A stretch of DNA of 20,600 bases from a virus. Shown here one piece after another: positions 391 through 15,096 of this stretch. How positions within the stretch are numbered: the stretch's first letter is position 1; each line of letters opens with the position of its first letter. The notes under the pieces are model-generated. The model was given only the letters and a program-made list of their open reading frames with translations, did not search any database and was not told the origin of the DNA. The DNA lies in IMG/VR virus record IMGVR_UViG_3300025108_000483, positions 1 through 20,600 of that record; one strand, written 5' to 3'. Both the position numbers and the translations under genes were made by a program.

Positions 391-398
391 CATAAATA
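391..398 (+). promoter_or_regulatory. T4-type late promoter (CATAAATA)
   Basis: CATAAATA differs from the T4 late consensus TATAAATA only at the first base. It sits between the sheath terminator and the ATG at 404, with 5 bases between motif and start codon. There is no Shine-Dalgarno sequence before the ATG, so by T4 spacing (motif about -13 to -6) the transcript would begin at or next to the ATG. Confidence 0.75.
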
Positions 399-403
399 AT
401 GGT

Positions 404-1384
404 ATGGCCCAACATAATAATTATGCCAAAGATAGAGACCTTATGATGGAAGCTTATGCCTCTGTTAGTGGTTATGTTCCGAGAACTTCAACTACTGCAT
501 TGCCACGTGGCTACGTTCTCACTGAAGCTCACTGCGATGAAGAAAGTTTAGAATCTGCTGAGCTTGGTGGTGACCTTTATGAAGTAGGTGCACCAGATCC
601 AAGTAATGAAAGCGAGCTTGTCATTTCTATTGTAAAACATGCTAATGGTTACATGATCACAACTGGTCAATTTAGCTCTCCAGAAGACTTTGTAACAAAA
701 GGTCCTGACAGTGCAATTGAAGCTGGTGGATATGCACTTACTCTTGATGGTAAGCTTATGGCGGAAGATGATCTTAAAGATGGTTTAGGTCATGAAGATA
801 ATGAGCGAGCAGAAGGAGCAGCTTATATGGCACCAGAAGGTATGGGGCCGGGTGAAGATGCTGAGCAGCGAGAGGGTGCTACACATAAGTATACTGTTAT
901 TGAAAATGACAAGGAAGGTAGCATTCAACCAATGGAATACAGGCAACCAGAAGGTGATCTTATCAAGACTGTTAAGAGTGGTGGTATGGTTAAGAAGTGT
1001 TATCAGCATCCAGCGGGTCGTGAGTGGGTTGTTGAATCTGATAGACCAATTGATTTTAATCAGGAAGGTAGCTGGACATGGGATGAAGATGCTGAGCAGC
1101 GAGAGGGTGCTACAAATGAGTTTCCTGATGGTGAAGGTAAGTATGAGGTAGCAAGCGTTGGTGGAATGCATGGCCAATCCATAATGAGAGGTAAGAAGTT
1201 TAACTCTTTGGCAGATGCATGTGCCCATGCTGGTTGTGATCTGAGTGAAGTTACTTCAGACAAGGATGGGTGGTTCGATATGGAGGGTGATGGTAAAACT
1301 CTTGAGTTTATGGTAGATGAAGATACAGCTATCGTTATGCATAAGAATCTTCCAGCCGAAGACAGCTCTTGCGCTTCCCACTAA
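404..1384 (+). CDS. Unknown acidic protein with repeated EDAEQREGAT joints, between sheath and tube genes
   Basis: A 326-residue acidic protein that I do not recognise. It begins MAQHNNYAKDRDLMMEAYAS. Three regions can be seen: about residues 25-145 (YVLTEAH, LVISIVKHANGYMITTG), about 161-226, and about 238-326 (KYEVASVGG, FNSLADACAHAGCDL, a probable small alpha/beta domain). They are separated by two copies of EDAEQREGAT, at 151-160 and 228-237, encoded by a perfect 31-bp direct repeat. I chose ATG 404 because the frame extends upstream only through a TTG at 368 inside the terminator, and because 404 lies exactly 5 bases after the late-promoter motif, as at other genes here. There is no signal peptide or membrane segment. 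The gene has its own promoter and its own terminator, so it reads as an insulated late unit inserted between gp18 and gp19. A virion or head-associated role is possible but is inference only. Confidence 0.8.
   Translation: MAQHNNYAKDRDLMMEAYASVSGYVPRTSTTALPRGYVLTEAHCDEESLESAELGGDLYEVGAPDPSNESELVISIVKHANGYMITTGQFSSPEDFVTKGPDSAIEAGGYALTLDGKLMAEDDLKDGLGHEDNERAEGAAYMAPEGMGPGEDAEQREGATHKYTVIENDKEGSIQPMEYRQPEGDLIKTVKSGGMVKKCYQHPAGREWVVESDRPIDFNQEGSWTWDEDAEQREGATNEFPDGEGKYEVASVGGMHGQSIMRGKKFNSLADACAHAGCDLSEVTSDKDGWFDMEGDGKTLEFMVDEDTAIVMHKNLPAEDSSCASH
853..883 (+). repeat. 31-bp direct repeat, copy 1
   Basis: This is identical over 31 bases to 1084-1114 and encodes EDAEQREGAT in frame. The first 18 bases (TGAAGATGCTGAGCAGCG) recur a third time at 13560-13577 in a different gene, again in the same reading frame. 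Confidence 0.95.
1084..1114 (+). repeat. 31-bp direct repeat, copy 2
   Basis: Perfect copy of 853-883, 231 bases downstream in the same frame, so the two encoded peptides are exactly 77 residues apart. The flanking sequence is not repeated. Confidence 0.95.
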
Positions 1385-1410
1385 TCTACATTAAAATATA
1401 ACTTTTTACA

Positions 1411-1438
1411 AGAGAAGGTCGCAAGACCTTCTCTTTTT
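1411..1438 (+). terminator. Rho-independent terminator before the tail tube gene
   Basis: A perfect 10-bp stem (1411-1420 with 1425-1434) with a GCAA tetraloop is followed by a short T run (1434-1438). It lies 26 bases after the stop codon at 1384 and just before the late promoter of the tube gene. Confidence 0.92.
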
Positions 1439-1450
1439 AAGTGCTCTAGA

Positions 1451-1458
1451 CATAAATA
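1451..1458 (+). promoter_or_regulatory. T4-type late promoter (CATAAATA) for the tail tube gene
   Basis: CATAAATAAT is the same ten-base string as at 391-400. Here 8 bases separate the motif from ATG 1467, so the predicted leader is only about 3 bases. No Shine-Dalgarno sequence is present. Confidence 0.75.
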
Positions 1459-1466
1459 ATAGTACA

Positions 1467-2006
1467 ATGCCAGTATCACAAAATATTCAAAACTTCTACC
1501 GTACCGCAGCTGATAAAGACTTCAGCCGTGATTTTCTTTTCCGTGTGACTCAGATGCAGTTGCAAGGTGTACCTGCTCTTAGTGAAAGTGATCTTATCTA
1601 TGTTAAGGCTGCTTCACTTCCAGGACGTAACATTGGTAACGTTGCTGTACCCTATATGGGTCTTAGCTTAAACGTTCCAGGTGCTGTAACTTATCCAGGA
1701 TCTGAAGCTTATCAACTTAGCTTCTACCTTGATGGTGAAAGCTCACTTCGTAACTTCTTTGAAACTGCTTCACGTGCACTCTTTAACGATGAGTCCTCTA
1801 CCGGTGAGTATGGTACACCTGATGATGATTTCTACATTCAGCTTGCTCAGCTTGATAAAGACCTTGAGCCTATCACCGAATATAAGCTAGTAGGAGCTTC
1901 CCTTCGTAATGTAAATCCAATCTCATATACGATTGCTGGTGGTACAGGTGCTACAGTTAGCGTTGATTGTACTATTTCTTACCACTTCTACACAAAAGAG
2001 CGTTAA
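1467..2006 (+). CDS. 19: Tail tube protein (T4 gp19-like)
   Basis: A 179-residue protein, close to the 163 residues of T4 gp19. It forms the stacked hexameric rings of the inner tail tube through which DNA passes. Diagnostic stretches are NFYRTAADKDFSRDFLFRVT near the N-terminus, VKAASLPGRNIGNVAVPYMG at about 51-70 (the tube-family LPA/LPG...IPV segment), LNVPGAVTYPG, and a C-terminal beta strand VSVDCTISYHFY. The gene follows its own terminator and late promoter, as expected for a high-copy structural protein. It is the first gene of a nine-gene tail block read on the plus strand. The ATG at 1467 is the only plausible start, near the promoter. Confidence 0.9.
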   Translation: MPVSQNIQNFYRTAADKDFSRDFLFRVTQMQLQGVPALSESDLIYVKAASLPGRNIGNVAVPYMGLSLNVPGAVTYPGSEAYQLSFYLDGESSLRNFFETASRALFNDESSTGEYGTPDDDFYIQLAQLDKDLEPITEYKLVGASLRNVNPISYTIAGGTGATVSVDCTISYHFYTKER

Positions 2007-2011
2007 TTTAA

Positions 2012-2737
2012 ATGCCTAATGCTATTCGAAAGCGTCTTCGTCTACACCAAGACTGGACAAACGACATCCCTCTCAAGAACATTTGGGGGATTAACTTCTC
2101 AGCTCGTACTGGCAGTGGAGCGATGGTTAATGTCGGTGACGCTATTGAATATTTCTTAGACATATATAGACCTAACACCTATAAGGTTGATAACGACCTT
2201 TTCGATAGAGTATCTGACTTTGATTCTGGCTTTCTTCTCGCACAAGATGTAAAAATGCCAGGATTAACTCTTAAAACAGATGAACAAAGTATACCAGGTT
2301 CTGGTGGTATGCCAGCTATGCAATATTCAAATCGTATAGCTGAGAATCATAAAATGACAATATCATTTCTTGAGACTAATAGAGATGTATTTTCTTTCTT
2401 TATACAGCCTTGGATTGTTGCTTGCTCATATGCTGGTTTGATCGAAGATGATAACGAACCGGATATTAAATGTAATATTGATGTTATACAATACTCTCGT
2501 ACAGCTGAGAAATATGGTGATAAACTTGGTGAGTCAAATAAACGTCGGCGTAGAAATGATTCAGTAGAGTATGGTATTCGTAAGATGCATACATTCTACG
2601 ATTGTGTACCTTATCAATATGATGGTGATAGGTTTAGTTACGGTAAACAGTCCTTATCTGACATAACACGAACCGTAGGCTGGAACTTTGCGCACTATCA
2701 ATTAAATACTCCAAGAGGAGTGTTAAATGGAATTTAG
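2012..2737 (+). CDS. Second tail-tube-fold protein, probable baseplate tube initiator (gp54-like?)
   Basis: A 241-residue protein starting 5 bases after the tube gene stop. The segment LAQDVKMPGLTLKTDEQSIP followed by MTISFLETNRDVFSFFIQPW resembles the tube-protein pattern (a VK..LPG strand, then a strand and helix beginning F...). A basic insertion SNKRRRRNDS lies near residues 176-185. T4 uses gp48 and gp54, both tube-like, to start tube polymerisation on the baseplate; this protein is shorter than T4 gp54 (320 residues), so the assignment rests on fold-like pattern and position. There is only a weak AAGAG 12 bases before the ATG, so it is probably co-transcribed and translated with gp19. 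Another tail completion or adaptor protein is possible. Confidence 0.6.
   Translation: MPNAIRKRLRLHQDWTNDIPLKNIWGINFSARTGSGAMVNVGDAIEYFLDIYRPNTYKVDNDLFDRVSDFDSGFLLAQDVKMPGLTLKTDEQSIPGSGGMPAMQYSNRIAENHKMTISFLETNRDVFSFFIQPWIVACSYAGLIEDDNEPDIKCNIDVIQYSRTAEKYGDKLGESNKRRRRNDSVEYGIRKMHTFYDCVPYQYDGDRFSYGKQSLSDITRTVGWNFAHYQLNTPRGVLNGI
2701..2708 (+). promoter_or_regulatory. Possible internal late promoter (ATTAAATA)
   Basis: ATTAAATA lies inside the end of the preceding gene, 18 bases before ATG 2727. This is the longer spacing expected for a transcript with a normal leader, and it is the one gene here with a good Shine-Dalgarno sequence. The motif is short and within coding sequence, so it could be chance. 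Confidence 0.4.
2714..2720 (+). promoter_or_regulatory. Shine-Dalgarno sequence (AGAGGAG) of the 2727 gene
   Basis: AGAGGAG ends 6 bases before ATG 2727. It is the only convincing ribosome binding site I found in the window, and it belongs to a gene whose start overlaps the preceding gene by 11 bases. Confidence 0.8.
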
Positions 2738-3536
2738 TATTGAAGTAAACTTACCATCAGGTAAGAGAGTTAGAGTTAAGGAGCTTAATAATGAAGAGTA
2801 TCTCGCTATTATTAAATTTGCGCAGAATAAAGACTTTAGAGGTCTTGGTGCGTTCCTTGATAATCTCTACATAAGACCAGATTTAAATATAGTTGATAGA
2901 ATATATCTTCTCATTTATATGAGAATGACATTTATCGAGCCAGATATTAACTTATCTATTAAAGAAAATTCAGTAGCAGTTAGTGTTGCGTCGATGCTAG
3001 ATAAGATTGAAGAGAGTTATGTTGACTTAGAGACAAATATATCTATAAATGGTATCGAGATTACATTAGATCTACCATGTATAACATATTATGAGAATAT
3101 AGATGAGCTACTCATTTCTACTATCAAGCATATTCAGATAGGTAATGACTCTATTGACTATAATGAACTAGATGATGAAGTCCAGGCAGAGGTATTGAGT
3201 AATCTACCTGCATCTGTATTTGAGTACGTTAACAAGTTTCTAGAAACTATACAAGAGAACTTACTAAATGTTGATCTTATTGAAAGTAACGATAGTATTG
3301 GGCTAGAGTCGACACGTATTAATCTATTGGCAAATAATGTGCTAGAGTTTATATCGAGCCTTTATGGTACAGATTTAGAAGGCTTCTATTCAATGATCTA
3401 TTCTTTCCAGAATACTATTATGCCTGGTAGTAATTATTTCTTTAAGATGTCACCTATTGAGTCACGTATTATAATGAACACTCATAGTAACAGAGTTAAA
3501 GAAGAGAATGACCGGTTGCAAAAGCAGCAACAGTAA
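2727..3536 (+). CDS. Baseplate hub/assembly protein (T4 gp26/gp51-type)
   Basis: A 269-residue acidic protein overlapping the preceding gene by 11 bases. It opens with a beta hairpin and helix, EFSIEVNLPSGKRVRVKELNNEEYLAIIKF, in the style of the T4 gp26/gp51 group (SGK..R.K......EYL..LK). It has a second beta pair near residues 100-115 (ISINGIEITLDLP), LPASVFEYVNKFL near 160, and a helical C-terminus ending in Gln-rich REN-type sequence. The next gene has the same overall plan, which suggests the two are paralogues. In T4, gp26 and gp51 act in assembly of the central baseplate hub, upstream of the tape measure gene 29; the order here agrees. The family call is from pattern and position, not from a strong motif. 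Confidence 0.6.
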   Translation: MEFSIEVNLPSGKRVRVKELNNEEYLAIIKFAQNKDFRGLGAFLDNLYIRPDLNIVDRIYLLIYMRMTFIEPDINLSIKENSVAVSVASMLDKIEESYVDLETNISINGIEITLDLPCITYYENIDELLISTIKHIQIGNDSIDYNELDDEVQAEVLSNLPASVFEYVNKFLETIQENLLNVDLIESNDSIGLESTRINLLANNVLEFISSLYGTDLEGFYSMIYSFQNTIMPGSNYFFKMSPIESRIIMNTHSNRVKEENDRLQKQQQ

Positions 3537-3543
3537 TTAAATA
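3536..3543 (+). promoter_or_regulatory. T4-type late promoter (ATTAAATA)
   Basis: ATTAAATA begins on the last base of the upstream stop codon (TAA 3534-3536) and ends 5 bases before ATG 3549. No Shine-Dalgarno sequence precedes the start. Confidence 0.72.
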
Positions 3544-3548
3544 ACTGT

Positions 3549-4289
3549 ATGAGTTCAACCGCTAGAAGCTTTCTAAACAAGCTTAAGGATATTAATGAGT
3601 CAAATACCGTTAACGTAAAAGTACCTTCCACAGGTGAAAAAGTAGATTTTAGGCTTATTAGTGTAAGTCAACAGAAAGCTCTCCTTCGTACAGCTTTTGA
3701 TGGAGTTGATGGTGTTATAGACAGAGCAGTAATAACGAATAAAATTATTAAAGATAATTCAACTATTGAAGATGAATTTCTAATTGTTGATAAGCCGGCT
3801 ATTTTCATCGCTCTTCGCAAAGAGTCTCTTGGCTCAAAGATTAAGATTAAGGATGAGGAGTATGACCTTGATAATGTAACACCGCTTGATAAGGCTGATG
3901 TAAAGCTTAAGCATACAATCGTGTTTGATGATATTAAGGTTAACTTGAAAGTACCTACCCTTACTATTGATAGTGAAGTAGCAGCGAAGCTTGCAAAGGA
4001 GATTGCCAAGGTACAAGGTACTGATGATAAAATTAAGCAGGGTATTGACACTGTTATATCACATGAATCTTGTAAGTATATCGATAAGGTATCAGTTGGT
4101 GAAGATGTTATTGAATTTGCTACAATTAGTGTACACGAGAGAGTAGATATTGTTAATAACCTACCACTATCACTAAACAATGAGATCGTTACTTATATTG
4201 GTAGTATTAAAACGGCCACAGATAAAGCTCTGACTGTGGCTGAGGAAGTAGTTGTAGAAATTGATGCAAGCTTCCTATCTGGTGATTAA
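3549..4289 (+). CDS. 26: Baseplate hub protein (T4 gp26-like)
   Basis: A 246-residue protein. The N-terminal pattern is NTVNVKVPSTGEKVDFRLIS followed by a helix beginning SVSQQKALLR, like the cyanophage/T4 gp26 pattern (LPSTG..V.FRP....EEK.LL). Near residues 95-135 lies a four-strand segment with LKHTIVFDDIKVNLKVPT, and near the C-terminus LPLSLNNEIVTYI. It shares its plan with the preceding gene (hairpin, helix, central beta segment, LP.S....V..). It probably works in assembly of the baseplate hub with the tape measure encoded next. Its own late promoter overlaps the stop of the gene before it, and its own stop lies inside the promoter of the gene after it. Confidence 0.65.
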   Translation: MSSTARSFLNKLKDINESNTVNVKVPSTGEKVDFRLISVSQQKALLRTAFDGVDGVIDRAVITNKIIKDNSTIEDEFLIVDKPAIFIALRKESLGSKIKIKDEEYDLDNVTPLDKADVKLKHTIVFDDIKVNLKVPTLTIDSEVAAKLAKEIAKVQGTDDKIKQGIDTVISHESCKYIDKVSVGEDVIEFATISVHERVDIVNNLPLSLNNEIVTYIGSIKTATDKALTVAEEVVVEIDASFLSGD

Positions 4290-4292
4290 ATA
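4285..4292 (+). promoter_or_regulatory. T4-type late promoter (ATTAAATA) for the tape measure gene
   Basis: The upstream stop codon (TAA 4287-4289) lies inside the ATTAAATA motif. The motif ends 5 bases before the GTG at 4298. The flanking 15-base string CTGGTGATTAAATAA recurs at 13680-13694 (promoter of the 13699 gene). Confidence 0.75.
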
Positions 4293-4297
4293 ATAAT

Positions 4298-5974
4298 GTG
4301 GCTGAAGACTCTACTAACCCATTTGCCAGTATATTAGGCGCTCTTTCTAGTAAGAAGGGCGATAAAGGCGTGAGGAAAGATAGCGACGTTAAAGTAAAAG
4401 CTCAATTAGTTCCAGCTGAAGTAGCTCGTTACGAGAGAATCTTCAGTATAATGAAGGAAGTGGTACACCCTGATCCTGAGGTGGGGAAGTTAGAAGAGGA
4501 TAAGGAAAAAAACGCCATGTCTGGTATGAACGGCGTGTTGAAGAGCTTAGGTATTGATAGTGGTTCAGGTGGAATAGGTAAATATACAGCTCTTTTAGGT
4601 GCTGGTCTGGCGGCTACAGCTTTAGCTTTCATGACCGATAAGGAGAAATTGTTAACAATGGCCTTTAAAGTAGCTAAGTTTCTTCCTATTAAGCTGCTTA
4701 AAGGTCTTCCTCTTGTTGGATCTCTTTTAAACTTTGGATTTGCTTATCAAGCATTTCAAGAGGATAAACCTTTAAAAGGAGTATGGGAGCTGACTTCCGG
4801 AATAGCTGGTCTCGTACCAGGAATTGGTACAGCTATATCAATTGGTATGGACATGATTATGTATATGTTCGAACAAAAAGAGGCGGAAGAGGCGGCGAAA
4901 GGTAAGAAAATAGACTTTAAAACATGGTTGGCAGACTGTGCCTCAAATATGGGGATGACTATCTTTAATAACATTAAGGATGGCAAGGTTCCTCTTTTAA
5001 GTGGGTTCTGGATGTTTGGTGAAGGTCTTGGCCATTTTTTGATTGCAGACTGGGACAAAGGACTTGAATGTTGGGAAAAGATTCTACCTGCTTTCTTAGG
5101 TCAAGCTAGTGATGAAGATAGACAGAGTTTCTGGGATGGTGTTAATGCTATGAACCAATTGACAGCAGATGGTGCTGAGATTGCTTATGAGAAAGCAAGC
5201 ACTTGGACTGGCGATGCTTGGAGCTTTGTTACAGCGTTCTTTACTGATGTAGGAGTGTCGATCCAAGGTTGGTTTAATGGTGTTATGGATTGGTTTGATA
5301 AGACACTTGACGAAGGCAAGAAGCAAATTAATCAGTTCACTAGCGATCTTTTTGGAAAGGAAATATTTGAACTCGAAAGTGAAAAGAACTTAACGAGTGA
5401 GACGAGTGCCGAGCGCAACTCAAGGGAGGCCCGCATCCGCGCCGAGATGGATGAGCAAGCAGCTGCTAATAAAATGTTCGGTTCGGAAAAAATGACAAAA
5501 GCTGAGTGGGATGCGATTATGAAACCTATTGATGCTGATGGTAGTGAGCTTTCTGGTGACGAACTCAATGCCTGGCGAAAGAGGAGGTCGGAAGCTTTTG
5601 CTGAAAACTTAAGTAAGTACAGAGCAGAAATGAAAAAGAGGGGTGATGCTTGGACAGCTGGTCAACTGGCTGGTAAATCAAATACAGAGATGGGCTATGG
5701 GGAACCACAAGCTGTCAAAGATGGTATTGTTCATCAGAATGGTAGGGCAACTCGTATTGATAGTGAAGATAGTGGAATCTTTGCTAAGCCAGGTGGTCCA
5801 ATCGACAAGATGCTTGATCAAAACTCTGCTGTTATGAAGACTATTCAGAGTATCAACGCTCAACAACTTAACGTATTAGTAGAGATTCGTAACGGAATCA
5901 ACGCCCTAAAGAGTAGTGGTGGTGGAGAATTAACCTTTGCTAGTGCAAATTTAACCCAAGAATTTTTTGAATAA
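4298..5974 (+). CDS. 29: Tail tape measure protein (T4 gp29-like)
   Basis: A 558-residue protein, close to T4 gp29 (590). Tape measure proteins set tail length and fill the tube lumen. Visible features: a charged N-terminus; three hydrophobic helical segments at about 92-112, 118-150 and 163-190 (LLGAGLAATALAFM, LPLVGSLLNFGFAYQAF, GIAGLVPGIGTAISIG); Trp-rich helices at 280-340; charged helices at 365-460; and a C-terminal motif at about 473-505 (VKDGIVHQNGRATRIDSEDS, then GGPI) of the kind found near the end of many tape measure and tail length proteins. The start is GTG: the ATG two bases earlier is in another frame and stops after 13 codons, while GTG is exactly 5 bases from the promoter motif. 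The stop TAA shares a base with the next ATG. Confidence 0.85.
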   Translation: MAEDSTNPFASILGALSSKKGDKGVRKDSDVKVKAQLVPAEVARYERIFSIMKEVVHPDPEVGKLEEDKEKNAMSGMNGVLKSLGIDSGSGGIGKYTALLGAGLAATALAFMTDKEKLLTMAFKVAKFLPIKLLKGLPLVGSLLNFGFAYQAFQEDKPLKGVWELTSGIAGLVPGIGTAISIGMDMIMYMFEQKEAEEAAKGKKIDFKTWLADCASNMGMTIFNNIKDGKVPLLSGFWMFGEGLGHFLIADWDKGLECWEKILPAFLGQASDEDRQSFWDGVNAMNQLTADGAEIAYEKASTWTGDAWSFVTAFFTDVGVSIQGWFNGVMDWFDKTLDEGKKQINQFTSDLFGKEIFELESEKNLTSETSAERNSREARIRAEMDEQAAANKMFGSEKMTKAEWDAIMKPIDADGSELSGDELNAWRKRRSEAFAENLSKYRAEMKKRGDAWTAGQLAGKSNTEMGYGEPQAVKDGIVHQNGRATRIDSEDSGIFAKPGGPIDKMLDQNSAVMKTIQSINAQQLNVLVEIRNGINALKSSGGGELTFASANLTQEFFE

Positions 5975-7222: not shown

Positions 7223-7600
7223 ATGAGTACAATAATAAATGGTTCGAAGCAAAATGATGTTACAGAGTTAAAGTCACTTTCAAATGATATGTATGAAAAT
7301 ATCTTTAAAGTAAATGTTCTCGATACAGATATCACTAACCTTTACTTCTACAACTTACTTAATAAGGTAATCTTTCCAGAGAATATTTCTGATGAGATTG
7401 TAGATACTATTACACTACAGAATGATTTACCGTGGACTACCCTCTCTTATAAGCTATATGGTACAATTAATTTGTGGTGGACAGTTTACCTTTTGAATAA
7501 ACCTGACTATATATTTAAGGCGAAAGCTGCTATCGAGTATAAGTATATCAAGCCTGGTGCTATGAAAGCTGTACTTCAACAAATTACACTTAATAAATAA
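7223..7600 (+). CDS. 53: Baseplate wedge protein (T4 gp53-like)
   Basis: A 125-residue protein. The middle carries LPWTTLSYKLYGTINLWWTV, the signature I associate with gp53 (W..LSYK.YG..DLWW.I...N), followed by LLNKPDYIF. It is shorter than T4 gp53 (196), lacking about 70 residues. gp53 joins baseplate wedges together around the hub. The stop TAA overlaps the next start by one base (TAATG at 7598-7602), so the next gene is probably translationally coupled. Confidence 0.75.
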   Translation: MSTIINGSKQNDVTELKSLSNDMYENIFKVNVLDTDITNLYFYNLLNKVIFPENISDEIVDTITLQNDLPWTTLSYKLYGTINLWWTVYLLNKPDYIFKAKAAIEYKYIKPGAMKAVLQQITLNK

Positions 7601-10368
7601 TGGTCATCTACGGTAATAATCTGGCAGAGAAGTTACAGGGTCTTGCTATAAGTAAAGACTTCTTAAAGTATAATACACCTTTCTGTGATATTGTTGATGA
7701 CCCTGATTTTGAGGTTGATATTAATCTTGCGTTGGGCTTTAATAGTGCAATCACTGGTAACGAAGATGCAGCTATTAAATTTGTACAGGACCTTACTCTT
7801 AATTCAAATATGATGGATAACTCTTCAGTAGAGTTTTACGTTCATAAGATGACACATAACCCAATCTTTACTTCTGCCATCAAAGAGATGAGAATGAGAT
7901 GGGATGATTTAAATGGTGCCAGTGATGACTTTCAAGACAAACTTAAAGATGCTCTTAAGGATTGCTTAAACTCCCCCTGCAACTTATTTCAAGAGACCTC
8001 AGATAGTATGGGTCGAATGGCACAGTCCGCTTCTACAAGAACATCAGATAACACGATGGGGTCTTTAAGCTTTGCTAACAATTCCGGTAATCCAAATGGT
8101 GAGGGTGATGAAGGAGATAGTGGGGTAATTACTTCTCTAAAGAATATGGTAGATGGTATGGATCAAGCTATTACCAATAAGATACCTAAGATCTTTTCGA
8201 ACGCCTTTACGGAGGTTGTAAGTGTTGCTGATAAAGCTTTCACTAATACTCAAGATGTATTGATGGGTAAGAAGAACTTACAGGATCTTGTAACTAAAGT
8301 ACAAGAGGGTAAATCATTTAGAGACCCAGCTAAGGTATTTAGATATAGTCCAGATGTTAAAGCTAACTTTGATTACTCTGCTGCTGCTTCTAATGTATTG
8401 TCCAAGATTAAAGAAGACATTGGTGGTTGCTTCAACAGATTTGAGTTTAAGTATAGGTATAATCCATATGAGAATAACATGTCTCGACCAATTGGTTCAA
8501 GGGTAGGTAACTCTAATGGTAGGAAGTATGATTCTGATGCTACAGGTAATCCAAATAGATCTGCACAGTCTAACGGTTTTGGATTAGATAGACAAACTAC
8601 TACAAGTAATCCAGGTGACAACCTAAGAGCTAATACTGTTACATTAGGTAAAGCAATAACTACTGATACTGTTAAAGTATCTAAGTCATATTTGCTTGAT
8701 GGTAAGACGAAGAATAATAGACAGAATTACTCCATCTTCGCCTCTCTCATTGATACACAGACTAAAACATTGTGGTATGAGAAATATGATAAAACACCAG
8801 GTGACAAGTTAACACTTCAAGGAATGGGTAATCTCGGTCAAAACTTCCGAATTGGTGCTTCAGTGTTTGGTAACGACGGTGATTATATTAAGCGTGCATT
8901 AAATGATGCAGATACATCAGATCAGGAGAAAAAGAAGTATGGTACTACTACAATGATAGGTAACTATAATACTGGCTTTAAGCATCAACTTGATGATGAG
9001 GGTATGGAGACTCTCTTCAATACTCCTAACACAAAGATTCTTAATGATGGTGTTGCTATTAGTACAGCTCTATTTAGAGAGTTTATAAATGATCCAGATG
9101 CTGGAATTGGAGATGCTTCATATAAGGATCCACAACTTCAAAATGAGTTTTTTGTAGCAGCAAGACCTGTTGGTTCAACAAATGACTATAAATACTATAA
9201 GATTACTGATAGTAACGATCAGTCCAAGATCAATGTTGATTTTACAGTTGGTGCTTGGAGTCACTATATGAAGTCGTTTGGTTTGGGTGAGTTGCAGGCT
9301 GCTTCAGAGGGCGCTGCGAAGAGAGAAAAGATAATTGGTACGAAATGGACAAAGGTACAAAAGATCTTTACAAACCCTAAAGCAGGTCAAATGGAGGTTC
9401 GAATATGTACTGGTCCACTTGAGGAGGTTAAAGATGCTGTTAGCAGTGATACAACAGTTATAACAGCTGAGGAGCAAGCAGCTGCACTCGAACAACTTGA
9501 AACAGGAGTAGTTGCTAATACTGGTGGTAATGTCGTCTTCCAGCTGAAAGGTAAGAAGCGCTCAGGTCCGCTGCAGCCAAGGTTAGAGAATATGATTAGA
9601 GAGGCGAGTGAACGAACCGGTTATAAGATTGTAGTATTTTCAGGTGGACAAATGTCTAAATCTGAGGCCAGAAGTAAGGGTGCAGTAGTTAGAGGTGATG
9701 ATTGGTATTTAAATGGTAGGGTAGTTCGAACAGGTTCAATTAGACATGATAACGGCTACGCTGCTGATATTCAAGTATGGGATGGTGGTACAAGATTAAG
9801 TGCAGAGAATAGTTCACACTTTGAAAGATTACGTAATTTTGCTGGGCTGCTTAAGTCCTTAGGAATGGAAAGTTATGGTGCTGGTCCAGGTTATATGAAT
9901 GGTAACCATCACGTTGATATTGCCTTTAGCGCTTCACCGCCTACAACAGGTTCAAAGACATGGGGAACTGGTACGCGATCTGCCAATACCCCTCAATGGT
10001 TGAAAGATGGGTTTATAAATGGTAAATTCAAACCTACACCTCCTCTAGAGCGTCAGGATGGTGTTGCCTCTGAAGTAAGTACAGGTAATGGTGAAGTTCC
10101 GGCCCCGGTCACTCCTAATGCTGCAGCATCAACTCCTCCAGAAGAAGAGGATTATATTGCGAAACGAGCCCGTATCGACGCCGAAAATCGGAGGATTCAT
10201 AATAGTGAAGTGGATGTCGATGCCCTTGGTACTCCGTATCCTGCATATTTTAAGCAATGGACAACAACTGGCAGTGATGGTAAAAAAGCTATTATTTGGG
10301 CTAAAAGTCAGAAAGAAGCTGACGCTACTCAAAGAGGTTATGATAGCATTCGAGAGAATGGATACTAG
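7600..10368 (+). CDS. Large tail/baseplate protein with M15-type zinc peptidase domain
   Basis: A 922-residue protein. Residues 1-130 are mainly helical with CLNSPC; 130-185 are Ser/Asn-rich; 240-640 have no motif I recognise. Residues about 655-776 match a D-Ala-D-Ala carboxypeptidase/endopeptidase (M15) domain: SGPLQPRLENMIREASE, YKIVVFSGGQ, then HDNGYAAD with H716 and D723 as zinc ligands (HxxGxAxD), and GNHHVDIAF with H771 and D773 (HVD motif). About 815-860 is a Pro-rich linker and 860-922 a charged tail. M15 enzymes cut peptidoglycan peptide cross-links. In T4 the hub protein gp5 carries a lysozyme for cell-wall entry, and this domain may do the same job with a different chemistry; I see no gp5-type OB or triplex repeat. 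The start overlaps the gp53-like gene by one base. Its TAG shares the palindrome CTAG with the stop of the convergent gene. Confidence 0.78.
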   Translation: MVIYGNNLAEKLQGLAISKDFLKYNTPFCDIVDDPDFEVDINLALGFNSAITGNEDAAIKFVQDLTLNSNMMDNSSVEFYVHKMTHNPIFTSAIKEMRMRWDDLNGASDDFQDKLKDALKDCLNSPCNLFQETSDSMGRMAQSASTRTSDNTMGSLSFANNSGNPNGEGDEGDSGVITSLKNMVDGMDQAITNKIPKIFSNAFTEVVSVADKAFTNTQDVLMGKKNLQDLVTKVQEGKSFRDPAKVFRYSPDVKANFDYSAAASNVLSKIKEDIGGCFNRFEFKYRYNPYENNMSRPIGSRVGNSNGRKYDSDATGNPNRSAQSNGFGLDRQTTTSNPGDNLRANTVTLGKAITTDTVKVSKSYLLDGKTKNNRQNYSIFASLIDTQTKTLWYEKYDKTPGDKLTLQGMGNLGQNFRIGASVFGNDGDYIKRALNDADTSDQEKKKYGTTTMIGNYNTGFKHQLDDEGMETLFNTPNTKILNDGVAISTALFREFINDPDAGIGDASYKDPQLQNEFFVAARPVGSTNDYKYYKITDSNDQSKINVDFTVGAWSHYMKSFGLGELQAASEGAAKREKIIGTKWTKVQKIFTNPKAGQMEVRICTGPLEEVKDAVSSDTTVITAEEQAAALEQLETGVVANTGGNVVFQLKGKKRSGPLQPRLENMIREASERTGYKIVVFSGGQMSKSEARSKGAVVRGDDWYLNGRVVRTGSIRHDNGYAADIQVWDGGTRLSAENSSHFERLRNFAGLLKSLGMESYGAGPGYMNGNHHVDIAFSASPPTTGSKTWGTGTRSANTPQWLKDGFINGKFKPTPPLERQDGVASEVSTGNGEVPAPVTPNAAASTPPEEEDYIAKRARIDAENRRIHNSEVDVDALGTPYPAYFKQWTTTGSDGKKAIIWAKSQKEADATQRGYDSIRENGY

Positions 10369-10868
10369 ATGTCAATAACATCTTCCTGACCTTTATCAGC
10401 CTCTGGCTCCGGTGCTTTTAACATTGCCTCCATTAGTTCTTCACGAGACATTACCAGCTTAGTTTGATTATCAGCCATATTGAGCTGCTTCTTAGAGTCA
10501 ATGTCCATTGTCTTAAGCTCTTTACGAGCCTCGTTATTGGCTTTGTTAGCATGGATCTTCTGCATTGTCTCAATAGAGCTATTTGCTGATCTCATAAGTT
10601 CAGCTAGGGAAGCAACATCTCTATTCTCAGGCGCTGATGAGATATAGTCCTTAACATTATCAACAGCATCAAGTGTAGTATCAATAAGCTTTGCTGTCTT
10701 CTTAATAAGATACTCTTCAAGGTCCTCTACCTCAGGAATCTCTTCTTTTGACTTCTCCTGCCTTGTGATAGAGTGATGCTGAGTAGTCAACTGAGATAAG
10801 ATGTCATCAACTGCACCGTCGACTTCATTACCACCGTTAGGATCAAATGTAGAATCATACTCTTCCAT
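10365..10868 (-). CDS. 16: Probable small terminase subunit (T4 gp16-like)
   Basis: A 167-residue acidic, largely helical protein (T4 gp16 has 164). The central part, LIDTTLDAVDNVKDYISSAPENRDVASLAELM then SIETMQKIH, has the plan of T4 gp16 (helix, then ...[27 protein letters not shown]), where this region forms the ring oligomer. The acidic N- and C-terminal tails agree with gp16-type proteins. The small terminase recognises and positions DNA for the large terminase ATPase during head filling. It is the only minus-strand gene here, with its own late promoter. It overlaps the peptidase gene by 4 bases tail-to-tail and is divergent from dUTPase. A different head or scaffold protein cannot be excluded. 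Confidence 0.6.
   Translation of the reverse strand: MEEYDSTFDPNGGNEVDGAVDDILSQLTTQHHSITRQEKSKEEIPEVEDLEEYLIKKTAKLIDTTLDAVDNVKDYISSAPENRDVASLAELMRSANSSIETMQKIHANKANNEARKELKTMDIDSKKQLNMADNQTKLVMSREELMEAMLKAPEPEADKGQEDVIDI
10367..10383. other. Small hairpin at convergent gene ends
   Basis: AGATGT (10367-10372) pairs with ACATCT (10378-10383) around a 5-base loop. It sits on the overlapping stop codons of two convergent genes, but no T run follows on either strand, so a termination role is doubtful. Confidence 0.25.
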
Positions 10869-10873
10869 ACACT

Positions 10874-10881
10874 TATTTAAT
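10874..10881 (-). promoter_or_regulatory. T4-type late promoter on the minus strand (ATTAAATA)
   Basis: Read on the minus strand, ATTAAATA ends 5 bases before ATG 10868. The 20-base string GTGATTAAATAAGTGTATGG (10884 down to 10865) is identical to 13683-13702 on the plus strand, covering promoter, spacer and start codon of another gene. Confidence 0.8.
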
Positions 10882-10908
10882 CACTTAGCATTACTTTGCA
10901 ACATTTAG

Positions 10909-10936
10909 TTGATTATTGCCATTCATATGCCATAAT
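10909..10936 (+). promoter_or_regulatory. Possible sigma70-like early promoter of dUTPase
   Basis: TTGATT (10909-10914) and CATAAT (10931-10936) are 16 bases apart. The start ATG lies 8 bases after the -10 box, so the transcript would start about 2 bases before it; there is no Shine-Dalgarno sequence. The element lies in the 76-base divergent region shared with the minus-strand late promoter. The match is moderate. Confidence 0.5.
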
Positions 10937-10944
10937 AGTGTTAT

Positions 10945-11367
10945 ATGTTACTACAATTTGAAAAGACTCACGTAGATGCCGTTCTACCTGGTAAGAATCA
11001 TGATAGTGATACTGGTATGGATGTTACTTGTATCGAGGACTTTACTATTCCAGCTCACGGCTCTGCTGTTGTTGGTGTTGGACTTAAGTTTGCCTTTATC
11101 CAGCCAGGATATTGGGTTAAGGTAGAAGGTCGTTCTGGTCTTGGCTTTAAGCATGGTATCATGCCTCATCCTGGTATCATTGATAGCGGCTATCGTGGCG
11201 ATGCTGGAGTTAAGCTCTATAACCTTACTGATAAAGACTATGAAGGTAACGCTGGTGATCGTATTGCTCAGTTCGTTGTCTATACTAACCATGATGTTAT
11301 TGTAACTGAAGGTGATGTAGTTGATTCTGATCGTGGTGAGAAAGGCTTTGGTTCATCTGGTAAGTAA
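10945..11367 (+). CDS. dut: dUTP diphosphatase (trimeric dUTPase)
   Basis: A 140-residue protein, typical of trimeric dUTPases, with all five motifs in order: DSDTGMDV (20-27; Thr replaces the usual Ala of AGxD), EGRSGLGFKHGI (61-72), PGIIDSGYRGDAG (76-88, with catalytic D80 and base-stacking Y83), GDRIAQFV (104-111) and RGEKGFGSSG (130-139, the P-loop-like C-terminal motif). It hydrolyses dUTP to dUMP and pyrophosphate, keeping uracil out of phage DNA and feeding dTMP synthesis. It has no late promoter but a sigma70-like one, as expected for an early or middle gene. The clamp-loader gene follows after 21 bases. Confidence 0.97.
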   Translation: MLLQFEKTHVDAVLPGKNHDSDTGMDVTCIEDFTIPAHGSAVVGVGLKFAFIQPGYWVKVEGRSGLGFKHGIMPHPGIIDSGYRGDAGVKLYNLTDKDYEGNAGDRIAQFVVYTNHDVIVTEGDVVDSDRGEKGFGSSGK

Positions 11368-11372
11368 GGAAC

Positions 11373-11378
11373 TATAAT
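11373..11378 (+). promoter_or_regulatory. Possible sigma70-like -10 box (TATAAT) before the clamp-loader gene
   Basis: A perfect TATAAT lies 10 bases before ATG 11389. The best -35 candidate, TTGGTT at 11348-11353, is 19 bases away and weak. AGGA at 11367-11370 is too far from the ATG (18 bases) to be a ribosome site. If used, the leader would be about 4 bases. Confidence 0.45.
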
Positions 11379-11388
11379 ATAATTAGTT

Positions 11389-12315
11389 ATGGTAGAATTC
11401 GATAAGATCTGGGTAGAAAAGTATAGGCCATCTAAGTTAGATGATCTTATTCTTGATGAAGGCTCTCTTAGAGTTGTTAGTCAGTTCAAGGATGAGATTC
11501 CTAACTTGCTATTCGTAGGAAGTCCTGGTACTGGTAAGACTACTCTTGCTCGTATCATTGTTAATGATATTCTTGGATGTAACTTCCTATACATTAACGC
11601 TTCTGATGAGTCTGGTATTGATGTTATTCGTCATAACATTACTAACTTCGCTCAGACTAAGTCCTTTGATGGTGGTATTAAAGTAGTAGTTCTAGATGAG
11701 GCTGATGGACTCACCCCTCAGGCACAGGCTGCACTACGCAATACTATGGAGACGTACGCTAAGTACTGTCGCTTTATTCTTACTGCTAACTATAAGCATA
11801 AGATTATTCCAGCTCTTCAGTCAAGGTGTCAATCAATCGATCTTAAACCTGAGATCAAACAAGCAGCTAAACGTTGCTTTAACATATTAAAACAAGAAAA
11901 CGTAAACGTAAGTGATGAACAGAAAATTAAATTTGGTCAGTTGGTTAAAAGAACATTCCCTGACCTCCGAAAAACTATCAACGAGCTCCAAAAGTCGGTT
12001 GTTGATGGGGAGTTGTATATTGATAGCAGCGGGAGTGACAGTGAACTTCTTAAGGCAGTCACGCAAGGACTCAAAGAAGACTCGATTAAGGTAAGAAAGT
12101 ATCTTATCGAGAACGAAGATAGGTTTCAAGGAGACTATGATACTCTTCTTGCTAACTTGTTAGACTATCTTTATGAGCAGCCTATTGACGAGTTCAAGAA
12201 GAAGCAGATGATTACTGTCATTGCTGATCACCTCTATAAGAGCGCGTTCGTCGTTGACAAAGAAATTAATGCTTTTGCTTGTATTGTTGCTTTAGAATTA
12301 GCTCTTAAGGCATAA
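11389..12315 (+). CDS. 44: Sliding-clamp loader ATPase subunit (T4 gp44-like)
   Basis: A 308-residue AAA+ ATPase (T4 gp44 has 319). It starts VEKYRPSKLDDLI, a clamp-loader signature. Walker A is GSPGTGKTT (44-52), Walker B VVVLDEAD (99-106), sensor 1 ILTAN (130-134), and SRC (145-147) supplies the trans-acting arginine finger. The C-terminal region, about 210-308, is the helical collar domain. With gp62 it loads the gp45 sliding clamp onto primer-template DNA. In T4 the loaded clamp also activates late promoters, so this gene links replication to the late motifs seen here. The gp62 gene, usually directly downstream, is not present in the window. The stop TAA lies inside the next late promoter. 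Confidence 0.96.
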   Translation: MVEFDKIWVEKYRPSKLDDLILDEGSLRVVSQFKDEIPNLLFVGSPGTGKTTLARIIVNDILGCNFLYINASDESGIDVIRHNITNFAQTKSFDGGIKVVVLDEADGLTPQAQAALRNTMETYAKYCRFILTANYKHKIIPALQSRCQSIDLKPEIKQAAKRCFNILKQENVNVSDEQKIKFGQLVKRTFPDLRKTINELQKSVVDGELYIDSSGSDSELLKAVTQGLKEDSIKVRKYLIENEDRFQGDYDTLLANLLDYLYEQPIDEFKKKQMITVIADHLYKSAFVVDKEINAFACIVALELALKA

Positions 12316-12318
12316 ATA
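12311..12318 (+). promoter_or_regulatory. T4-type late promoter (CATAAATA) overlapping the gp44 stop codon
   Basis: The TAA stop of the clamp-loader gene (12313-12315) is part of CATAAATA. The motif ends 5 bases before ATG 12324. A nearer ATG at 12320 is in another frame. Confidence 0.75.
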
Positions 12319-12323
12319 TATGC

Positions 12324-13355
12324 ATGAAGTTTAACGACTCCTTCGATAAATACATGAGCCTCTATAATGAGGCTAAGGAAGCTCCTAAGGGTAAGCATTA
12401 CGATAAAGCTGGTAGACTTCAGTCTGGTGATGCAGATGCTGATGGTCGTGGAGGTCCTAAGTTTCGTTCCGATCCTACTTATGTAAATCCCAATGAGGAT
12501 GGAGAAAGTAGAGAGTTCTTCTTTGGTTATGATATTGAAAATGTTCATCCCGTTGAAGAGTTTGTAAAAGCAAATTACAAAGAGGGTGAGTATGAAATGT
12601 CTACTGGTTACGGTGATGATGTAATGAATCACTTTAAAGTTAATGTTGATCTCGATGATGAGAGAGGTAAGAAACTTTTAGACATGATTGAAGATTGTGA
12701 TGGTGAGGGTAATTACGATGAGGATGATTACGATGAGGATAACGAGACTGCTAAGAATATTGGTAAGGGAGCGTTAAAGCTTGCTGGTAAGACTCTTAAA
12801 GGAGCCGCAAAGTTGGCTGGTAAAGGTGCACTTGAGGTTGCTCATTTTGCAACAGATGATGTATATAGGAGTAAAAAATCATCTAAGGAAGATTGCGAAT
12901 CTTGTGGCTGTTCTGATGAAGAGGCAAGAGAAGATTGCGAAACATGTGGTTGTGAAGAGAATCCAGAGTATGGTCACTTAGATGATACTTACTCTAACTA
13001 CATTGATCAGTACGAGCCTAAAGACGAGTCTAAAGAGGATTGTGAGTCTTGTGGATGTGAAGATGCTGAAGCTGGTTGTGAATGTGGCAATTGTCCAGAC
13101 TGCACACCTAAAGAGGATGCTGAGAGGATCGATAAAGATCGTATGAAGTGTAACTCACCTAAGCGTGGTGGTAGTAAGAAGTTTGTTGTTAAGGCTTGTG
13201 AGAATGGTAAAGAGAAAATTGTGCGCTTTGGAGATCCAAACATGAGAATCAAGAAGAGCAATCCTAAAGCTCGTAAGTCTTTCCGTGCACGTCATAAGTG
13301 TGATCAGAAGAAGAGTAAGTTCTCTGCTGGTTACTGGAGCTGTAAGAAATGGTAA
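12324..13355 (+). CDS. Cys-cluster protein with C-terminal Lys/Cys module (marine T4-like phage type)
   Basis: A 343-residue protein of unknown function. In order: an N-terminal amphipathic segment MKFNDSFDKYMSLYNEAKEA; an Asp/Gly-rich stretch (KGKHYDKAGRLQSGDADADG); a small alpha/beta domain at about 70-125; an acidic run (NYDEDDYDEDNE); a Gly/Ala/Lys repeat helix (about 150-172); a Cys cluster at 191-260; and a basic module at about 276-343 with KFVVKACENGKEKIVRFG, DPNMRIKKSNPKARKSFRARH and WSCKKW. I recognise that last module as recurring in hypothetical structural proteins of marine T4-like phages. There are 18 Cys in all, 13 of them in the cluster. EDAER (264-268) stands just before the basic module. 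The start is fixed by the 5-base promoter spacing. A head-internal or metal-binding role is possible but unproven. Confidence 0.8.
   Translation: MKFNDSFDKYMSLYNEAKEAPKGKHYDKAGRLQSGDADADGRGGPKFRSDPTYVNPNEDGESREFFFGYDIENVHPVEEFVKANYKEGEYEMSTGYGDDVMNHFKVNVDLDDERGKKLLDMIEDCDGEGNYDEDDYDEDNETAKNIGKGALKLAGKTLKGAAKLAGKGALEVAHFATDDVYRSKKSSKEDCESCGCSDEEAREDCETCGCEENPEYGHLDDTYSNYIDQYEPKDESKEDCESCGCEDAEAGCECGNCPDCTPKEDAERIDKDRMKCNSPKRGGSKKFVVKACENGKEKIVRFGDPNMRIKKSNPKARKSFRARHKCDQKKSKFSAGYWSCKKW
12888..13103 (+). repeat. Three diverged copies of an EDCESCGC-coding repeat plus a CxCxxCxxC tail
   Basis: The repeats encode EDCESCGC (189-196), EDCETCGC (203-210) and EDCESCGC (238-245), followed by CECGNCPDC (252-260). 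The DNA copies have diverged at third positions (GAAGATTGC against GAGGATTGT), so the peptide rather than the DNA is being kept. Confidence 0.85.
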
Positions 13356-13356
13356 T

Positions 13357-13665
13357 ATGAATAATTTTAAAGAATACTTCGAAGAGAACTTTAAAGACGG
13401 TAAGGTTAAGGGTAAGTCCAGACCTGGTCGTGCTAAAAAGGCTGGTGTTGATTGTAGCAAGAGTAAGACGGAGCTTCGTAAGATTGCCAAGAACAGTTCT
13501 GGTGAGAAGCAGAAGATGGCTCACTTTTGTGCAAACATGAAGAAGTCTGATGAAGAAGCTGAAGATGCTGAGCAGCGCTTAGATGATAAGTGTTGGAAGG
13601 GTTATAAAAAGCAAGGCACCAAGATGAAGGGTGGCAAGAGAGTTAACAATTGTGTGAAGAAATAG
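13357..13665 (+). CDS. Small basic Lys/Cys protein, possible internal head protein
   Basis: A 102-residue, Lys-rich protein of unknown function. It begins one base after the stop of the previous gene, so the two are probably co-transcribed and coupled. The N-terminus MNNFKEYFEE resembles the T4 capsid-targeting peptide MKTYQEFIAE in its spacing of aromatic and Glu residues. A middle module has KSRPGRAKKAGVDCSKS and NSSGEKQKMAHFCANMK, and the end is CWKGYKKQGTKMKGG then NCVKK; both resemble modules I associate with marine T4-like phage proteins. EDAEQR (69-74) separates them. The frame is open upstream to 13285, but that would overlap the previous gene by 71 bases and add non-matching sequence, so 13357 is preferred. 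Confidence 0.75.
   Translation: MNNFKEYFEENFKDGKVKGKSRPGRAKKAGVDCSKSKTELRKIAKNSSGEKQKMAHFCANMKKSDEEAEDAEQRLDDKCWKGYKKQGTKMKGGKRVNNCVKK
13560..13577 (+). repeat. 18-bp third copy of the EDAEQR-coding repeat
   Basis: TGAAGATGCTGAGCAGCG is identical to the first 18 bases of the repeats at 853-883 and 1084-1114, more than 12 kb away, and in the same coding frame (EDAEQ/R). Confidence 0.9.
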
Positions 13666-13685
13666 TAGGAATTACTATACTGGTG

Positions 13686-13693
13686 ATTAAATA
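13686..13693 (+). promoter_or_regulatory. T4-type late promoter (ATTAAATA)
   Basis: ATTAAATA ends 5 bases before ATG 13699, within a 20-base block (13683-13702) identical to the minus-strand promoter/start of the small terminase gene. It lies in the 33-base gap after the stop at 13665. No Shine-Dalgarno sequence is present. Confidence 0.8.
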
Positions 13694-13698
13694 AGTGT

Positions 13699-15096
13699 AT
13701 GGTCAAAACACTTAATACTGAGTTTCCAGTAGAGCATTGTAATGATAACGTTAATATCATCTATGTTGAGTCGCTTAATAATGTCTATAAAGACCTCTAC
13801 CATGCTACTACTAATGGTGAGAAGTCAGTATTAAAGGCAATTGAGGTTGGAGATGACTTTATTGTAGCAAGTATAAGCCTTACTGTTGAAGGTGAGACTA
13901 CTAAACAGTTAGTAAGAGTTGAAGAGGGTGCTAACCCAAAAGTGTATTTAAATGATAGCCTTTATAGTGTCATTGAAGAGTCTAAGAAGGCAGCAGAGTT
14001 AAAGGTTATTGAAGAGGAGAAAGCTGCTAAGAAAGCAAAGACAGAAGCTGTTACAAATCTTATTGTAGGTGCTCTTGATGAGCAAGTCAAAGCTGTTCAA
14101 GCAAAAGCTAAATTAGACTTTAATAAGGTTGTTGAAGAGAGTAAGAAGAGAGTTAAGGCAGCTAAGAAGAAGCCAGTAGCTGTAAAGAAAGAGGTTCAAC
14201 AAAAAGAGGAGGTTGTTGTTGAGCAGGCTAAACAAGAGCTTGAGAAGGTTGAAGATAAGATTACTGAAACAAGTAAGTATATTCAGCATCAGGTTATGGA
14301 AGATTATGCGCCTGAGAAAGGTGATAAGAGCTTCCAGAGTGATATGAAGGCTCTTAAGTCTGAGTTAGAAGCTAAGATTAACAATCTCTTTGATAATCAG
14401 ACAAGAGACATTCGCAAGATTGCTGAGATGTCTTCTGGTGGTGGTGGTAATGAATCACGCTCTATTCAGAATACTGCTGACATCGCTACATTGAGTGCCG
14501 ATGTTGGTGCTTTTGAGAATGTTACAGTAAGTCAACGTGAGCAGTTTCAAGGTTATATAGCTCTCCTCACACCAGTATACTTTGGTGGTAGTGCTACTAC
14601 TTTTGACATTCCACTTTCTGGTGTTAATCAGTTCCTCGATATTGAATTGGAAGTTGATCCAGCAGGAGAGTTTGATTACCGTGTTACTTCAATGACAGAA
14701 GCTACTGGACTATCTGGTGGCTATACTGGAACAGGTGCTGATGGAGATCCAATCATCTTCTTACTCGAAGGTCTTGAACTAACATCTTCAGCTGATGTAC
14801 GTGTATCAATGAGTTTTAACCCAGATGATGATGGTGGTCGTCTTGATAGTAGACTTAACTTCTTCCGACACTCAGGTACAACTCCTTCAGATAACTTCCA
14901 TATTGAAGCTTCTTCAATTGCAATGGAATCAGGTGCTGAAGAGGATTATGCCTACACTCCTGATATTAAGTTCTTCATCGGTGATACAATCGATACTAAC
15001 GCTCCTGGAGATGCTGGCAGAGTATGCTTTCAGATCAAATCAGATGTACCAGGTACAGTCACAATCAATGAAATAGCAATGTTCATTCAGAAATAA
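13699..15096 (+). CDS. Coiled-coil plus beta-domain virion protein, candidate fibre or whisker component
   Basis: A 465-residue protein of unknown function. Residues 1-92 form a small beta-rich N-terminal domain (VNIIYVESL, KVYLNDSLYSVIEES). About 93-245 is a long Lys/Glu/Ala helix with coiled-coil character (AAELKVIEEEKAAKKAK, VEQAKQELEKVEDKITE). A glycine linker (SSGGGGN, 245-251) is followed by a short trimer-like segment (QNTADIATLSADVGAFENVT, resembling fibritin-type heptads). About 285-465 is a beta-rich C-terminal domain (YFGGSATTFDIPLSG, FLDIELEVD, RVSMSFNPDDDGG, ending TVTINEIAMFIQK). The layout N-domain, coiled coil, beta tip is usual for trimeric phage fibres. The giant fibre gene follows after 45 bases, so the pair may form one appendage. 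No specific family is recognised. Confidence 0.72.
   Translation: MVKTLNTEFPVEHCNDNVNIIYVESLNNVYKDLYHATTNGEKSVLKAIEVGDDFIVASISLTVEGETTKQLVRVEEGANPKVYLNDSLYSVIEESKKAAELKVIEEEKAAKKAKTEAVTNLIVGALDEQVKAVQAKAKLDFNKVVEESKKRVKAAKKKPVAVKKEVQQKEEVVVEQAKQELEKVEDKITETSKYIQHQVMEDYAPEKGDKSFQSDMKALKSELEAKINNLFDNQTRDIRKIAEMSSGGGGNESRSIQNTADIATLSADVGAFENVTVSQREQFQGYIALLTPVYFGGSATTFDIPLSGVNQFLDIELEVDPAGEFDYRVTSMTEATGLSGGYTGTGADGDPIIFLLEGLELTSSADVRVSMSFNPDDDGGRLDSRLNFFRHSGTTPSDNFHIEASSIAMESGAEEDYAYTPDIKFFIGDTIDTNAPGDAGRVCFQIKSDVPGTVTINEIAMFIQK

Follow-up and report, generated by a model that had tools for sequence, protein, structure and literature searches.

The virus record IMGVR_UViG_3300025108_000483 of IMG/VR, analysed over positions 1 to 20,600 (20.6 kb, hereafter the window; probably a fragment of a larger genome), carries putative late promoters of the T4 type whose core hexamer, TAAATA, ends exactly 5 bases before the start codon of the gene downstream, a placement we refer to as N5. 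The same placement is found in uncultured relatives of the window. It puts the predicted transcription start (+1) on the first base of the start codon, and the late RNAs of N5 genes would thus be leaderless throughout the clade. The sequence case for this reading is strong, and we put its probability at about 0.82. Genes with a spacing of 6-8 are predicted to have leaders of 1-3 nt, and a few genes to have real leaders. T4-type late boxes and leaderless mRNA are each already known; what is new is the lineage-wide placement of the box, together with a second, early-type promoter class described below.

Placement of the late boxes

On the two strands of the window there are six TAAATA-N5-(A/G)TG sites in total, whereas 300 dinucleotide shuffles of the same DNA had 0.79 on average and never more than 4; the second commonest spacing of TAAATA, a spacing of 1, has 4 sites. 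The word itself is not enriched (28 occurrences against 24.2 expected, with 22 of 100 shuffles as high), and the signal in the window is where TAAATA sits, not how often it occurs. An earlier note on this DNA had described six octamers with a 5-base spacing (starts 404, 3549, 4298, 10868 on the minus strand, 12324 and 13699) and spacings of 8 at 1467 and 9 at 15142; the six were confirmed by inspection of the sequence, and the other two spacings are also as described. The octamer at 15142, TTTAAATA, is not covered by the consensus that the note gave, and three additional placements of TAAATA were absent from it: 0 bases before 7600, 18 before 2727 and 27 before 7223. The elements in question are the following.

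391 to 398, plus strand: late box CATAAATA, 5 bases before ATG 404 (gene 404-1384)
1451 to 1458, plus strand: late box CATAAATA, 8 bases before ATG 1467 (tail tube, gp19-like)
2703 to 2708, plus strand: TAAATA within the upstream gene and 18 bases ahead of ATG 2727, an exception with a leader
2714 to 2720, plus strand: AGAGGAG, the sole clear Shine-Dalgarno sequence, before the baseplate hub gene 2727
3536 to 3543, plus strand: late box ATTAAATA, 5 bases before ATG 3549 (T4 baseplate protein, PF12322)
4285 to 4292, plus strand: late box ATTAAATA, 5 bases before GTG 4298; its TAA is also the stop of the preceding gene
7594 to 7599, plus strand: TAAATA abutting ATG 7600 (spacing 0), which breaks the rule
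10874 to 10881, minus strand: late box ATTAAATA, 5 bases before ATG 10868 of a minus-strand gene without assigned function
12311 to 12318, plus strand: late box CATAAATA, 5 bases before ATG 12324; its TAA is also the stop of gp44
13686 to 13693, plus strand: late box ATTAAATA, 5 bases before ATG 13699
15125 to 15132, plus strand: TTTAAATA, 9 bases before ATG 15142 (large protein with a beta-helix stretch)

Relatives were collected in overlapping lists: 13 contigs through the gene at 5974, 135 through gp44, 80 of them retained, and 55 through the terminase. A gene-blind set, in which identical contexts were counted once, comprised 166 stretches (the window and overlapping loci) with 2.25 Mb. 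Excluded were open reading frames (ORFs) shorter than 60, 80 or 100 aa, depending on the test, and starts lying no more than 40-70 bases from a contig end. The distribution of spacings, which had been set beforehand as the refuting test in case it lacked a peak at 5, has a strong peak there in the clade relatives. When starts were picked blind to the motif, no other hexamer at any distance was as frequent as TAAATA at distance 5, which stood before 52 of 254 longest-ORF starts and, with ATG as the sole start codon allowed, before 58 of 243 (about 1 is expected per position). In the gene-blind count, ATG follows TAAATA at N5 in 376 cases; N6 accounts for 136 and each of the remaining spacings from 0 to 30 for 10-87, and a further 64 N5 sites have GTG. 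Chance was tried as the cause of this placement with shuffles, other hexamers and other spacings, and was rejected.

The N5 peak was present in every subgroup tested that had more than one locus. N5 was found at 21 of 122 starts where gp44 identity is 88-100% and at 65 of 323 where it is 74-76%. The close terminase group has it at 111 of 321 starts, and contigs with a terminase identity of only 48-54% still have it at 18 of 93. In G016, a relative of 196,877 bp with a gp44 identity of 74%, 27 of 200 starts have N5 and 10 have N6. Sites with a spacing of 4-8 number 633 and fall into 134 protein clusters, 91 of which have at least one N5 site. Homologues tend to hold the length of the spacer while its five bases vary; the family of the 3549 gene, for example, has 27 different spacers among 30 N5 sites. 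Spacing 5 is likewise the one seen in 26 of 29 sites in the cluster of the 1467 gene and in all 14 homologous sites of the 12324 gene; for the 10868 gene it occurs in 28 of 44 homologous sites, with spacing 7 in 12 of 44. The GTG start of the 4298 gene is kept in 15 of 17 homologous sites, and the spacing of 18 seen before 2727 was found again in relatives. The spacing of 0 at 7600 (a 922-aa gene) recurs at one start in the relative L018; by the same rule no leaderless mRNA would be expected from such a site.

The comparison with other T4-like phages that the earlier note had proposed was made on 50-kb blocks of seven isolates (T4, S-PM2, HTVC008M, Melnitz, Mosig, Ochrobactrum OC and Microcystis Mel-JY01), and these show no peak at 5. 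N5 occurs at 2 of their 327 starts, and gene-blind counting gave 16 N5-ATG sites, which is within the range of 5-19 found over spacings 0-30.

Predicted initiation site and alternative readings

The bases between the box and the start codon are consistent with initiation on the codon itself. At N5 sites the base at -1 is T in 81% and C in 15%, compared with 39% and 11%, respectively, at 1134 ATG starts that have no box within 30 bases; taken one site per cluster, 84 of 88 protein clusters have a pyrimidine at -1. A pyrimidine preceding the A or G of the start codon fits a transcription start at this position. With a spacing of 7, 90% of genes (n=29) have a purine as base 6 after the box and 69% a pyrimidine as base 5; with a spacing of 8, the values are 86% (n=22) and 78%. 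The pyrimidine-purine step is thus kept at bases 5 and 6 with the ATG further off, which indicates that the step belongs to the box and not to the ATG. At N6 sites base 6 is A in 70-73%. Of 13 leadered late boxes of T4, 11 have a purine as the 6th base, the top position (2-9 of 13 at positions 2-5 and 7-9), and of 19 such boxes of HTVC008M, Melnitz and Mosig, 17 have a purine there. The T4 late box is described as lying about one helical turn upstream of the start, with its first base at -13 (PMC2988020), and this agrees with a +1 at the 6th base. The suggestion of the earlier note that +1 falls on the first base of the start codon is therefore supported by spacing, by the pyrimidine at -1 and by comparison with T4, and on this sequence evidence the late mRNAs of N5 genes would be leaderless.

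Ribosome-binding sites are scarce at the same starts. Shine-Dalgarno-like words at -17 to -4 were found at 14 of 243 clade starts, and a control stretch has more (26); for the seven isolates the numbers are 146 of 327 starts against 9 in the control, and for T4 26 of 45. As the earlier note had stated, the only clear Shine-Dalgarno sequence among the genes considered in the window is the AGAGGAG before 2727; in the clade, AGGAG at distance 6 occurs at 5 distinct starts. At 2708-2721 the leadered 2727 gene has a small inverted repeat, ACTCC-AAGA-GGAGT, that takes in most of the Shine-Dalgarno sequence; it overlaps coding sequence, and its conservation may come from the protein.

Several observations weigh against a leaderless start. 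Raw site counts include near-identical orthologues, which were corrected for only in the per-cluster tests. The window itself has exceptions with spacings of 0, 8, 9, 18 and 27. In the subgroup with 74-76% gp44 identity, N6 is nearly as common as N5 (45 and 65) and N3 occurs in 18, and in the close terminase group a spacing of 10 was found at 23 of 321 starts. N6 sites lack the pyrimidine bias at base 5, before the predicted +1. In T4, position 5 is A in 8 of 13 boxes and not a pyrimidine; in HTVC008M, Melnitz and Mosig, position 7 is as purine-rich as position 6 (17 of 19); and S-PM2, OC and Mel-JY01 show no purine peak, with 13, 13 and 15 of 18 at positions 6, 7 and 8. N5 is also not exclusive to the clade: 4 of the 16 N5-ATG sites in the isolates are annotated gene starts. 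Genes for gp55 and gp45 were not found in the window or in the closest contigs, which are fragments, and were found only in G016. Finally, the candidate hosts G397 (a metagenome-assembled genome, or MAG, of Verrucomicrobiales and the best host candidate), G283 and G421 have no clear hexamer or -10 peak at their starts. The leaderless pattern is weak in the phylum of G397, with 99 sites at N5-7 and 67 at N22-24 among 194 genomes, some of them repeats (reversed-pattern controls, 7 and 1), and G397 itself has no site of this pattern.

The annotated N5 genes of the isolates lie at L033:25560 and 25831 (HTVC008M), at L034:29042 on the minus strand (Melnitz) and at L368:14964 on the minus strand (Mosig); one of the two HTVC008M genes encodes a tail completion protein. 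Individual N5, possibly leaderless, late genes may thus exist in SAR11 and OM43 phages, with no genome-wide rule there.

Three other explanations of the spacing were considered. The boxes could be real promoters from which initiation is shifted by several bases, or the starts could be mispredicted, in either case leaving short functional leaders. The occurrence of N6 in 25, N7 in 27 and N8 in 28 of the 134 clusters agrees with this, as does a purine calibration that is sharp in T4 only; however, the codon at N5 sites with an ORF of at least 60 aa is ATG in 353 cases, GTG in 63 and TTG in just 2, and homologues with divergent spacers hold the spacer length, so we regard short leaders at N5 genes as improbable. 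TAAATA-N5 could also be a translation signal, either an A/U-rich enhancer or a site for protein S1, in an mRNA that has a leader and is transcribed from a more distant upstream promoter. Organisms poor in Shine-Dalgarno sequences may use leaderless mRNA and/or S1, as discussed in PMC5397173, and the AT content from -12 to -1 is high. Such a signal would not be expected to consist of a single exact hexamer at a single exact distance that coincides with positions -11 to -6 of the T4 late box, nor to have a pyrimidine-purine step that tracks the box and not the ATG at spacings 7-8; in the second promoter class, moreover, the AAGGAAC element is tied more tightly to its own -10 sequence than to the ATG. 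The odds on a translation signal are accordingly long. Least probable of all is that tight gene packing sets the spacing, the TAA of the box being an upstream stop codon followed at once by the next gene and having no meaning for transcription: the TAA does end an upstream ORF at 74 of 416 N5 sites, including two window boxes (4285-4292 and 12311-12318), but 234 of the 416 have no co-directional ORF end (at least 80 codons) from -40 to +14, so that packing does not account for the spacing and is largely refuted as its cause, and it does not predict the -1 pyrimidine or the base preferences at -12 to -14.

Late box type and a second promoter class

The core TAAATA of the clade late box, at -11 to -6, fits the T4 box TATAAATA at -13 to -6, but the two bases preceding it are different. 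Among the 416 N5 sites T is found at -13 in 9% and A at -12 in 60%; the clade boxes mostly have A or C at -13 and A or T at -12, rather than TA as in T4, and G at -14 in 58%. According to the comparison in PMC2988020, A stands at -13 in nine of the 50 T4 sites, and in Aeh1 this position is held by other bases. No base exceeds 43% in the profile of N5 sites from -21 to -15, and in the same published comparison the T4-type late promoters of T4, S-PM2, KVP40 and Aeh1 have no conservation at -35 (PMC2988020). As in T4, the core lies about one helical turn before the predicted +1; however, 13 leadered T4 boxes sit 14-35 bases before the gene, whereas the clade box ends 5 bases before the start. The late box was also considered as a -10 element for the host σ70, and this was rejected because -11 is T and there is no TANNNT in that register. 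The T4-like genes of G016 comprise gp13, gp15, gp17-gp21, gp23, gp43-gp47, gp55, uvsW, uvsX and uvsY, capsid genes among them, with matches at 4.6e-21 for gp55 and 1.1e-9 for gp45. T4 late promoters are served by gp55 with the co-activator gp33 and with gp45, and their activity is coupled to replication. By analogy with T4, the boxes would be recognized by gp55 and would act late.

The gene for the gp44 clamp loader at 11389 has no late box; instead, AAGGAACTATAATATAAT ends 5 bases before its ATG. The element listed at this place is the following.

11366 to 11383, plus strand: early-type promoter AAGGAACT-N4-TATAAT, ending 5 bases before ATG 11389 (gp44 clamp loader)

In the window this element precedes gp44, and the N5 late boxes precede structural or unassigned genes. 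The same composite sequence stands directly before the ATG of small genes near one contig end in the contigs G006 and G008; many copies of it are present in L025 and L027. AGGAAC and TATAAT are separated by 5 bases in 95 distinct cases and have a gap of 0 in 21, whereas any other gap up to 20 has 0-1 cases. The first ATG follows TATAAT by 5 or 6 bases in 64 of the 95 cases with a gap of 5, and in 71 of 109 in a slightly larger set. Since its distance to TATAAT is fixed and that to the ATG is less so, the element looks like part of a promoter and not like a Shine-Dalgarno sequence, and the early-type mRNAs are probably also leaderless, or nearly so, across the lineage. The leaderless reading in the earlier note is supported for the late boxes; the note missed that promoters of the early type are similarly placed. 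AAGGAAC-N5-TATAAT is not clearly enriched in Verrucomicrobiota, the candidate host phylum (16 matches and 11 for reversed-pattern controls in 115 genomes), so the factor that reads AAGGAAC may be phage-encoded. In G016, examination by eye revealed TTGAAA-like plus TATAAT elements shortly before the ATG of some genes, including gp55 and uvsX.

Candidate host, known systems and gene content

Indications of the host come from contig G006. It carries a DUF1549/DUF1553 gene and a DUF1501 gene (L023:12333-16759), and the 17 relatives of the latter in bacterial genomes (29-40% identity), grouped by name, belong to Verrucomicrobia (7), Planctomycetes including Kuenenia (9) and Hydrogenedentota (1). 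It also encodes a nitrogen regulator P-II (L025:7870-8244), which was searched for in the phylum of G397 (387 genomes), six planctomycete genomes and one Hydrogenedentota genome. The best identities were up to 87% in the phylum of G397, 55-61% in each of the planctomycete genomes and 68% in the Hydrogenedentota genome. A Verrucomicrobiota host is therefore likely for G006 and, by extension from G006, is suggested for the window. Some Verrucomicrobia are listed as having few Shine-Dalgarno sequences (PMC10783764), and Planctomycetes are named among the groups suspected of leaderless or S1-driven initiation (PMC5397173). A proposal based on metagenomes describes a group of marine Verrucomicrobia phages of about 39 kb (PMC3861242).

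From these data we infer a mechanism in which transcript ends, recognition by gp55, late timing, leaderless translation and host are all predicted. T4-type late promoters would lie at a distance that makes the first base of the start codon +1, and RNA polymerase with a phage σ factor of the gp55 type would produce late mRNAs that begin with AUG or GUG, or, at spacings of 6-8, that have a leader of 1-3 bases. A start codon at the 5' end would allow translation to begin without a Shine-Dalgarno sequence. The second class, AAGGAAC-N5-TATAAT, seems to work likewise. The lineage would then be mostly leaderless, which probably suits a Verrucomicrobiota host that makes little use of Shine-Dalgarno sequences. 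Taken jointly, these propositions state that a T4-like lineage has largely lost its leaders, that the late box and an early element not clearly enriched in the candidate host phylum both initiate on or next to the start codon, that promoter position alone sets the start of translation, and that late expression in a Verrucomicrobiota host relies on initiation at a 5'-AUG; we consider the combination somewhat better than an even bet.

Leaderless transcripts are found in Thermus phages. They are also described for phage lambda (PMC3160421), and phage transcripts are said to be often leaderless in PMC5312081, where AR9, with leaders of 26-491 nt, is a counter-example. In the account of leaderless (TA-led) genes of Deinococcus and Actinobacteria in PMC3160421, a promoter element about 10-12 bases before the start and the lack of a Shine-Dalgarno sequence are as in the clade, but that element resembles the σ70 box TANNNT, whereas the clade late element has T at -11, lacks TANNNT and is a phage promoter of the T4 type. 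No report of leaderless late mRNAs in T4-like phages was present among the open-access literature matches listed, a scope outside which most subscription papers fall. T4 late transcription is a textbook system in which late genes lie well downstream of their promoters and ribosome-binding sites are common. If the reading given here is correct, the box stands on the start codon in about 90 protein clusters, and leaders can vanish genome-wide in a large lytic phage. The placement rule gives predictions of transcript 5' ends and of start codons at single-base precision, which would improve gene calling in these uncultured phages, and it makes leaderless translation at high expression testable.

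The window has the core of a T4-like myovirus: the end of a T4-type sheath gene, tail tube and tube-like genes, two baseplate hub genes and the gp44 clamp loader gene, in addition to a dUTPase gene and a gene with a weak gp53-like match. The product of the 15142 gene is likely a tail fibre. Gene 404-1384 had no match in PHROG (E 0.001) or Pfam (E 0.01), and the gene at 5974 had none in a tblastn search of phage isolates. The gp44 of the window is 41% identical to that of the nearest isolate. Among the matches listed, those of the sheath of relative L003 to isolates cover about one third of its length at no more than 44% identity, and the best isolate match of G016 gp23 has 34% identity. G016 also has a gene for a transfer-messenger RNA (tmRNA) with the tag AANKVVDFVLPQAEPQFALAA (L309:15777-16193), and genes for tRNA-Leu, tRNA-Met and tRNA-Arg are present in L310/L311.

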